The notes beneath the pieces were generated by a model that saw nothing but the letters and a program-made list of their open reading frames with translations, had not been told where the DNA came from and did no database searches. 46,365 nt of DNA, from NCBI GenBank assembly GCA_030154525.1, contig JAGUQV010000090.1, positions 1 through 46,365 on the forward strand. Direction: 5' to 3'. Numbering within the stretch: the stretch's first letter is position 1; every line of letters starts with the position of its first letter. Below are positions 6,764 through 42,416 of this stretch, piece after piece. Source of the DNA: Mycoplasmataceae bacterium (lineage in GTDB: Bacteria; Bacillota_I; Bacilli_A; Mycoplasmatales; Metamycoplasmataceae). The position numbers were made by a program, and so were the translations under genes.

Positions 6764-6770
6764 ATTAAAA

Positions 6771-6776
6771 ATTATA
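6771..6776 (-). promoter_or_regulatory. -10 box of def (leaderless)
   Basis: Minus-strand TATAAT, seven bases before the def ATG, so transcription should start at or next to the start codon. It lies inside an inverted repeat (6771-6779 with 6811-6819) shared with the divergent serS promoter. Confidence 0.6.
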
Positions 6777-6806
6777 AATAAAATAATTATTTTTTTATTA
6801 AAAATA

Positions 6807-6812
6807 TATAAT
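6807..6812 (+). promoter_or_regulatory. -10 box of serS (leaderless)
   Basis: TATAAT seven bases before the serS ATG; a second TATAAT (6814-6819) abuts the ATG and is probably too close to serve. No ribosome-binding site precedes the gene. Confidence 0.6.
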
Positions 6813-6819
6813 TTATAAT

Positions 6820-39769: not shown

Positions 39770-40849
39770 TTATTTTCTTTTTTCAAGAACAATTAGAGAT
39801 TCAATATGTTTAGTTTGTGGAAACATATCGTATATTTTACTATAGATTATTTTATAATGTCTCTTCAATTTAGCAAAATCTGAAGCTTGTGTGCCAGGAT
39901 TGCAAGATAAATAAATTATTCTTTCTGGTTTAAATTTAAGAATAAGAATTTTAATAGCCTTAACACTCATCCCTTCTCTTGGAGGATCAACAATAAATGT
40001 ATTAAAATGACTATTGTTTTTCTTCAAAAATATGTCTACATCAGCCTTAATAAATCTTGTATTTGTTATTTGATTTTGCACAATATTATCAACTGCATTT
40101 TTATATGAATCTTTGTTATTTTCAACAGCTACAACTGACTCTGAAATATCACTAACATAGATGGCAATTGTTCCTATTCCAGAATATAAGTCTAGTGTTT
40201 TTCCGTTTGGAATAACAAATTTTTTAATATCCTTATATGCCTCTTCAGCAACTTCTTTATTAATTTGATAAAAAGACCCAATGCCAACATTAAATTTCAA
40301 ACCAAACATGGAATCTGTTGTTGAAATATTAGATTTTTTAGTACCTGAAATTAAAGTGTCCAATTGACGATAAATTATCTCGCCTTGTAAATTCTCATCA
40401 TATTTTATGGAAGAAAGTTTGTAATCATCAATTTTGATTTTATCTTTGGTTTGTTTTTGATAGAAATAACCATCATGTAATGTTATTTTATTTCTATAAT
40501 AAAATTCTTTTTTTCCCACAAAAACATCCAGTGTTTTTAATTCTGTCTTAGCAATATTGGCAAAATCATTTAACACACGTTCTTTTTTAAAATTTAATTG
40601 TTCCTCACGATTCATATGTATTAATTCATACCCACCTATTAAATTTGCATCCTTAATAATTTCCAATCTTCTATTAATAGATGGCTGGATTATTTTAACA
40701 ATTTTACCAATTGAATACTTTTCTTTTTCAGTAGTTATTGCAATCTCGAGCTCTTCACCTTTAATTCCACCAAATATATATATTGGTTTATTGTTTAAAA
40801 AGGCCACTCCCTCTCCATTTTGATTATATTTCTCTATTGTAACTGTCAT
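39770..40849 (-). CDS. RNA (uracil-5-)-methyltransferase, RlmD/TrmA family
   Basis: The 359-residue protein has an N-terminal TRAM-like RNA-binding domain (residues 1-55), then the SAM-dependent methyltransferase core: FYQINKEVAE, LDLYSGIGTIAIYVS (SAM motif), FIVDPPREGM and the catalytic cysteine YLSCNPGTQASD, ending in TKHIESLIVLEKR. The four cysteines that bind an iron-sulfur cluster in RlmD of proteobacteria are absent (the region reads DANLIGGYELIHM). The target, 23S rRNA or tRNA U54, is undetermined. GGGGAA precedes the ATG by six bases. Confidence 0.88.
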   Translation of the reverse strand: MTVTIEKYNQNGEGVAFLNNKPIYIFGGIKGEELEIAITTEKEKYSIGKIVKIIQPSINRRLEIIKDANLIGGYELIHMNREEQLNFKKERVLNDFANIAKTELKTLDVFVGKKEFYYRNKITLHDGYFYQKQTKDKIKIDDYKLSSIKYDENLQGEIIYRQLDTLISGTKKSNISTTDSMFGLKFNVGIGSFYQINKEVAEEAYKDIKKFVIPNGKTLDLYSGIGTIAIYVSDISESVVAVENNKDSYKNAVDNIVQNQITNTRFIKADVDIFLKKNNSHFNTFIVDPPREGMSVKAIKILILKFKPERIIYLSCNPGTQASDFAKLKRHYKIIYSKIYDMFPQTKHIESLIVLEKRK

Positions 40850-40878: not shown

Positions 40879-40920
40879 TAACATTTTCCTAATTATATTT
40901 TATAATTGATAAAAATGTTA
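40879..40920. promoter_or_regulatory. Symmetrical bidirectional promoter, methyltransferase gene and tRNA-Trp
   Basis: AATTATA (40891-40897) and TATAATT (40901-40907) are mirror-image -10 boxes separated by TTT; they point left to the methyltransferase gene and right to the tRNA. Nine-base arms TAACATTTT (40879-40887) and AAAATGTTA (40912-40920) flank them, near the expected start sites. Confidence 0.55.
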
Positions 40921-40924
40921 AATT

Positions 40925-40998
40925 AAGGGATTAGTATAACGGTAGTGCTGCGGATTCCAAACCCGCCTGTGGGGGTTCGATTCCTCTATCCCTTGCCA
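40925..40998 (+). tRNA. tRNA-Trp (anticodon CCA)
   Basis: Folds as a tRNA: acceptor AAGGGAT/ATCCCTT, D-stem GTAT/GTGC, anticodon loop TTCCAAA (anticodon CCA), T-arm GGGGG-TTCGATT-CCTCT, discriminator G and encoded CCA at 40996-40998. The anticodon reads UGG; UGA, the main Trp codon here, needs a second tRNA (UCA). The closing pair of the anticodon stem is an A-C mismatch (A31-C39). Confidence 0.92.
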
Positions 40999-41021: not shown

Positions 41022-41672
41022 TTAAAATAATAATCTACTTAAAATATTAAATATTTGTTTATTCGTTTCAGGCGAAGTGATACTTATATAATGATCAAGT
41101 GATTGTCCTAAATGATAAAATGATTTTAATAGTAATATTGGTGTTTTGCTCTTAGAATGATTTTTGCACAAAATGCCGCCTTGATAGACATCAAACGAAT
41201 GTAAATCTTGATTGGTTCCACACAAAACACAACTTGAAAAAGACAAACCCTCTCCATTAATATCTAATATCATAGATATTAAATAACTTTGATTTTTAAA
41301 AAAATTAACTCCTTCAAAATCACTAACTATTGAAGAGCAAATATCAAATATATCTTTATTATGATCTCTTATTTTTTTAAAAATCCTTATGATGGTTTCT
41401 ATTTTGTGAGAGTTTAATTTATTGATAGGTGGAAGCGAAGATAAGAGGGTGGCTTTTTTTAATAGGAAAAAACTTTCAGAAGAGTATTTTATTAATATTT
41501 CAAACTCAACTAACGAACATAATGAAATATTAGATCTATTCTTGCTCTCTAACTTCATAACTCCCTTAGCCAATATACTTATTAGTGCATCTGAGGTCAT
41601 AACATTTAAAATTTCATCATGTTCTAAATACTTATTCTTAGATATTATTATTCCTATTATTTTTTTTGTCAT
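41022..41672 (-). CDS. recO: DNA repair protein RecO
   Basis: The 216-residue protein fits RecO, which loads RecA and anneals single strands in recombinational repair. The N-terminal OB-fold region begins KIIGIIISKNKYLEHDEILNVMT, with the ILAKGVMKLESKNRS loop typical of the family. A zinc-finger-like C-terminal part has SCVLCGTNQDLHSFDVYQGGILCKNH, retaining three Cys and a His. It diverges from the regulator gene with 33 bases between their ATGs. TATAAT is nine bases before its start. Confidence 0.85.
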   Translation of the reverse strand: MTKKIIGIIISKNKYLEHDEILNVMTSDALISILAKGVMKLESKNRSNISLCSLVEFEILIKYSSESFFLLKKATLLSSLPPINKLNSHKIETIIRIFKKIRDHNKDIFDICSSIVSDFEGVNFFKNQSYLISMILDINGEGLSFSSCVLCGTNQDLHSFDVYQGGILCKNHSKSKTPILLLKSFYHLGQSLDHYISITSPETNKQIFNILSRLLF

Positions 41673-41675
41673 TAT

Positions 41676-41704
41676 ATTTTAATTATATTTTATATAATTA
41701 AAAT
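41676..41704. promoter_or_regulatory. Perfect palindromic divergent promoter, recO and OmpR-like gene
   Basis: Thirteen-base arms ATTTTAATTATAT (41676-41688) and ATATAATTAAAAT (41692-41704) around TTT fill the whole 33-base gap. Each arm holds a -10 box: leftward at 41687-41682 for recO and rightward TATAAT at 41693-41698, exactly seven bases before the regulator ATG. Confidence 0.6.
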
Positions 41705-41705
41705 T

Positions 41706-42416
41706 ATGAATCAAAGTTTAGACAAAAAAGTAAATAATGATCCACTTAAAATTGTTTTTGTTTGTAATGAACAAACAAACAAAAACGAAATAGAAGAGTT
41801 ATTTAAAATAGCGAAAATTTATTTAAATATTTCTTGAATTTTTATAGATGTCCAAGAAATAAAAGATATCGAAAATATTGAAACGCCGGATATTTTATTT
41901 ATTGATTATAAAGAAAATTTTGAAAAAATATTTAACTGAGAACAATATCATTATTTTCATCAAAAAAATAGTATTTTTATGCAAGTCACTGTATTAGATT
42001 CATTTCAAGAGCAAGATTATAAAATATTGAAGTTTGGGACAGACGATATAATCTATAAAAATTTTGGTTATGATTTTTTAAAATGAAAAATAATTGCAAT
42101 ATTAAGAAGAATGTGAGATTCTCATAGTAATAAAACCACTAAAATATATAAGGGAATGATTATTGATAATTTAAAGAATGTGTTTTATTTTAATGATAAA
42201 TTAATATATTTAACAAAAAAAGAATTTGAATTAATGGATTTTTTAATGACAAATATTAAACAAGGTTTTATTAGCAAAAAGAAAATATTTGAAGCTTTAT
42301 GAGGTGTAAAAGGAAATGATTGTTCAAGAGTTACAGATCAAATTATTTTTAAAATCAAAAAGAAAATTGGTAAAGATGTATTTCAAATTACAAAACAGGG
42401 AATAAAAATACTATAA
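41706..42416 (+). CDS. OmpR/PhoB-like response regulator with degenerate receiver
   Basis: A 236-residue protein. The C-terminal part (about residues 155-236) reads as an OmpR-type winged helix: LTKKEFELMDFLM, then SKKKIFEALWG and SRVTDQIIFKIKKKIG, ending in a hairpin QITKQGIKIL. The N-terminal domain follows receiver order: KIVFVCNE, DILFIDY with D67 at the phosphorylation position, a Thr in FMQVTVLDS, and GTDDIIYKNF with K118 at the conserved Lys. The acidic pair that binds Mg is lost (VCNE instead of VxDD), so normal phosphorylation is doubtful. No histidine kinase is in the window. It starts leaderless and precedes an S1-domain gene by ten bases. Confidence 0.8.

Follow-up and report, generated by a model that had tools for sequence, protein, structure and literature searches.

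Two leaderless promoters, back to back, probably account for the palindrome that separates recO from an OmpR-like gene in a Mycoplasma-like gut bacterium

The palindrome in the recO/OmpR-like gap

What is the role of a perfect AT palindrome that takes up 29 of the 33 bases between the start codons of two divergent genes? The gap in question lies in a window of 46,365 nucleotides—the whole stretch of DNA analyzed here—from an uncultured Mycoplasma-like genus represented by metagenome bins, which was translated with TGA as tryptophan. On its minus-strand side, it is bordered by recO (41,022–41,672), which matches RecO_N and RecO_C and falls slightly below the cut-off of TIGR00613. On the plus strand follows the gene of an OmpR/PhoB-type regulator of 236 amino acids (41,706–42,416, TGA read as tryptophan).

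Between the two ATGs, positions 41,676–41,704 read ATTTTAATTATAT-TTT-ATATAATTAAAAT. The original prediction described an inverted repeat with 13-base arms around TTT in this gap, which is confirmed as the arms are exact reverse complements, and a −10 box in each arm, which is found as TATAAT at 41,693–41,698 on the plus strand and, on the minus strand, as the complement of 41,682–41,687. Among the perfect inverted repeats of the 46-kb window with loops of up to 8 bases, the one at 41,676–41,704 is the longest. Arms of at least 13 bases are expected about 0.16 times per window (average over 12 dinucleotide shuffles); when the gap alone was shuffled 100 times, such an arm never arose. Outward, the hexamers are followed by TAAAAT-T on the side of the OmpR-like gene and by TAAAAT-ATA on the side of recO. 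None of AGGA, GGAG, GAGG, and AAGG, which were looked for as ribosome-binding sites, precedes the ATG of either gene. TTGTCA at 41,666–41,671, in the neighboring start-codon region, was considered as a −35 element and rejected, as it would need a 21-bp spacer.

The −10 hexamer at the leaderless position

Gene calling followed a simple longest-ORF rule and covered about 263 kb of the window's own genome, together with most of the relatives G003 and G011. Upstream of ATG, TANAAT shows a sharp peak at −12 to −15 in two genomes. A hexamer confined to positions −15 to −7 accompanies 43 of 172 divergent genes in G003, 20 of 50 in the own genome, and 31 of 150 in G011, as against 17, 5, and 8 for the reversed control; at four more distant offsets, the counts are far lower. 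Expressed by its start, TANAAT begins 12 to 15 bases before the ATG in 21–40% of divergent genes, which is 2.5 to 4 times the reversed control.

Aligned on this hexamer, the promoters of the own genome and G003 yield the consensus TATAATTWWWWW-ATG in upstream DNA of about 82% A+T, and a conserved −35 element is not seen among them. As the hexamer ends about 7 bases before the ATG and no clear −35 accompanies it, transcription is predicted to start on the start codon itself and, hence, to give a leaderless mRNA. Leaderless hexamers and ribosome sites appear to avoid each other, but this is partly mechanical, as the two ranges scanned overlap, and it was left out of the evidence.

This layout resembles the leaderless promoters of other Mollicutes—Mycoplasma and Mesoplasma florum—with TAWAAT about 12 bp before the ATG and no clear −35 (PMC7745072, PMC3160421). 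Across five Mycoplasma genomes, 18.3% of genes are leaderless on average (PMC3160421). Both hexamers of the recO gap sit at this genome-wide leaderless position, starting at −13 for the OmpR-like gene and at −15 for recO.

Conservation of the gap in relatives

The divergent adjacency of recO and the regulator is maintained in the genus, and both TATAAT hexamers, one on each strand, are present in all eight aligned gaps. The divergent pairs of G007 and G009, whose gaps look different, stand outside this alignment, and the recO matches of G001 are split over two contigs. The spacer between the hexamers amounts to 5 bases in three gaps, 4 in four, and 1 in the remaining one, and the symmetric match beyond the hexamers extends over 6, 6, 2, 2, 2, 1, 0, and 0 bases. 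Judged from these alignments, what is conserved is the pair of hexamers and not the full palindrome.

The match of 6 outer bases occurs also in G008 and is absent from the other six aligned gaps. For two random independent leaderless promoters, a match of at least 6 has P ~0.01, which is uncommon and counts against a reading of the gap as two promoters placed back to back. Under that reading, the full length of the palindrome would therefore reflect modest luck or shared descent with G008.

Palindromes in divergent gaps genome-wide

From the repeated symmetric −10 boxes, the original prediction had also proposed a compact class of palindrome-marked bidirectional promoters. Genome-wide counts lend this no support: the 12 genomes contain AATTATA-N1-7-TATAATT 34 times, compared with 33 for the reversed and 32 for the convergent pattern. 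Divergent gaps of 120 bp or less do not exceed their own shuffles in palindromic symmetry (mean p 0.57 and 0.66). With no excess over either the control patterns or the shuffled gaps, a genome-wide class of palindromic promoters is rejected. The proposed two-way promoter is thus supported at the recO gap, by position statistics and conservation, but not as a member of a palindrome class.

Two probable promoters back to back

We consider it very probable that 41,676–41,704 consists of two sigma-70-type, −10-only, leaderless promoters arranged back to back as ATTATA-N5-TATAAT. RNA polymerase would read TATAAT at 41,693–41,698 toward the OmpR-like gene, with a predicted start at about 41,705, leaderless or nearly so with respect to the ATG at 41,706. 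In the other direction, it would read the mirror TATAAT from 41,687 to 41,682 (ATTATA on the plus strand) toward recO, with a predicted start at about 41,675 and a leader of 0–3 nucleotides before the ATG at 41,672. In both directions, transcription would begin at, or no more than about three bases from, the start codon, and both mRNAs would be translated without a ribosome-binding leader. Two promoters would in this way be packed into about the shortest gap able to hold both. The symmetry of the palindrome then arises because each half repeats one consensus, TATAATTAAAAT-ATG, facing outward. This reading is bound to gene starts from the longest-ORF rule and to predicted transcription starts.

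The hexamers are 5 bp apart and the predicted starts about 30 bp; polymerase should therefore be unable to serve both directions at once, and the two should compete. From the general footprint size of polymerase, we infer that an enzyme bound at one hexamer would cover the other.

A precedent comes from 5′-RACE in M. florum, which described −10-only promoters, leaderless starts, and one divergent pair whose promoters overlap back to back (PMC7745072). The recO gap resembles that pair in its back-to-back arrangement. Unlike the known Mollicute promoters, its two promoters—with starts that are predicted here—form a perfect palindrome filling nearly the whole gap. All in all, the recO palindrome is best read as an ordinary mycoplasma promoter design that is unusually tidy, and not as a new kind of element.

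As far as can be told from sequence, a gene-dense and AT-rich mycoplasma would thus fit two divergent promoters into 33 bp, with space saved on the leaders by leaderless transcription and on the −35 elements by −10-only recognition. A striking palindrome can come about without any regulator when an ordinary promoter consensus is present twice, which calls for caution when operators are assigned in low-GC genomes.

The OmpR-like protein and a possible operator

A rather unlikely alternative takes the palindrome for an operator: a symmetric dimer of the OmpR-like protein would bind it and thereby repress or activate both the regulator gene and recO, with the likeness to −10 boxes being partly incidental. 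What speaks for it is chiefly the neighbor, as a DNA-binding protein of OmpR/PhoB type is encoded directly beside the palindrome and the gene pairing is kept in the genus. The Pfam winged helix is present in all nine OmpR-like homologues tested, while the Pfam receiver domain is found in none of the nine. The predicted model (mean pLDDT 81.9) shows an α/β domain, predicted to be receiver-like, followed by a winged helix. Its fold matches full-length response regulators at low full-length TM-scores (~0.35–0.45), which may be an effect of the domain arrangement. All nine homologues share Asp67, which lies where the third long strand of the N-terminal domain ends.

A search of 12 genomes of the genus for HisKA kinase domains gave no match, as expected of an orphan regulator; HATPase_c gives one or two matches per genome, which may be gyrase/topoisomerase subunits. 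The situation is reminiscent of HP1043, an orphan regulator binding inverted repeats: an OmpR-family gene stands beside an inverted repeat with no HisKA found, and the repeat is a putative site proposed from sequence. HP1043 is, however, a stated exception among OmpR/PhoB proteins, most of which bind direct repeats (PMC3960148). Moreover, an operator of an OmpR/PhoB regulator would be expected to keep a constant half-site spacing across orthologues, whereas the spacing in the recO gap changes among 5, 4, and 1. The symmetry of the outer arms, too, is lost in relatives. The motif is in excess nowhere else, and each half is accounted for by the genus-wide promoter consensus, so that no extra function is needed. 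As an observation on its own, the orphan OmpR/PhoB-type gene at 41,706–42,416 stays beside recO through a Mycoplasma-like genus without detectable HisKA.

Promoter spacing and further alternatives

Another improbable reading takes ATTATA-N4-5-TATAAT as a selected switch, in which two mutually exclusive leaderless promoters would serve either recO or the orphan regulator and the regulator itself would bias the choice. Among three genomes, 13 divergent gaps bear a hexamer at the leaderless position on both sides, with inner spacings of 4, 4, 5, 5, and then at least 30. The lack of spacings between 4–5 and 30 is in keeping with such a switch. Of the four compact spacings, three belong to the recO gap and one to an unrelated gene pair of G011; the bimodal spacing is interesting, yet it comes from only two independent loci. 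The second locus (G011, C3 69,874–69,906, within L197) is a 33-bp divergent gap between a nucleotidyltransferase-like gene and an uncharacterized gene, in which the ATTATA-N5-TATAAT layout appears again.

It is very doubtful that the gap holds a bidirectional promoter of the type described by Warman and Grainger, in which a single near-symmetric −10 hexamer is read both ways. Promoters of this kind abound in bacteria (PMC10268837, PMC12825309), and the recO gap shares with them the symmetric −10 DNA, the divergent transcription, and the expectation that the two directions exclude each other. By definition, however, their starts lie 7–25 bp apart, most often 18 (PMC10268837), whereas in the recO gap 5 bp separate two distinct hexamers and the predicted starts are about 30 bp from each other. 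Same-direction genes with leaderless promoters likewise argue against a shared hexamer, as reversed hexamers are not in excess around these promoters. With the predicted starts, the reciprocal −10 overlap of this promoter type is absent, and it is rejected on geometry.

That the palindrome is a chance product of AT-rich DNA, with one or neither half a working promoter, is in keeping with the base composition and the missing overall enrichment of palindromic gaps, but hardly credible for the longest palindrome of the window, with both hexamers in eight of eight aligned gaps and at the genome-wide leaderless position.

Other predicted −10 pairs in the window

Two further sites had been likened to the recO palindrome. 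For the looser one, in the divergent gap of def and serS (6764–6819; gene names from recognizable motifs in the translations, without family search), the likeness is partial. A −10 hexamer sits at the leaderless position on each side, at 6771–6776 on the minus and 6807–6812 on the plus strand, 30 bp apart, but the gap contains no palindrome beyond chance (p 0.96, gap shuffles).

The similar arrangement between a methyltransferase gene and tRNA-Trp is real. Here, rlmD (39,770–40,849, minus strand), encoding a 23S rRNA uracil-5-methyltransferase, and tRNA-Trp (anticodon cca; 40,925–40,998, plus strand) enclose the symmetric pair AATTATA-TTT-TATAATT at 40,891–40,907 (AATTATATTTTATAATT), which is shorter than the recO palindrome. 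Its plus-strand hexamer at 40,901–40,906 is the predicted −10 of tRNA-Trp. The minus-strand hexamer at 40,892–40,897 is the one predicted for rlmD, which would bear a leader of about 36 nucleotides with a GGGGA ribosome site before the ATG at 40,849. The core ATTATA-TTT-TATAAT upstream of tRNA-Trp is retained in all seven genomes compared. In this hexamer pair (40,892–40,906), the spacer is exactly 3 bp in each of the seven, whereas the spacer of the recO gap varies.
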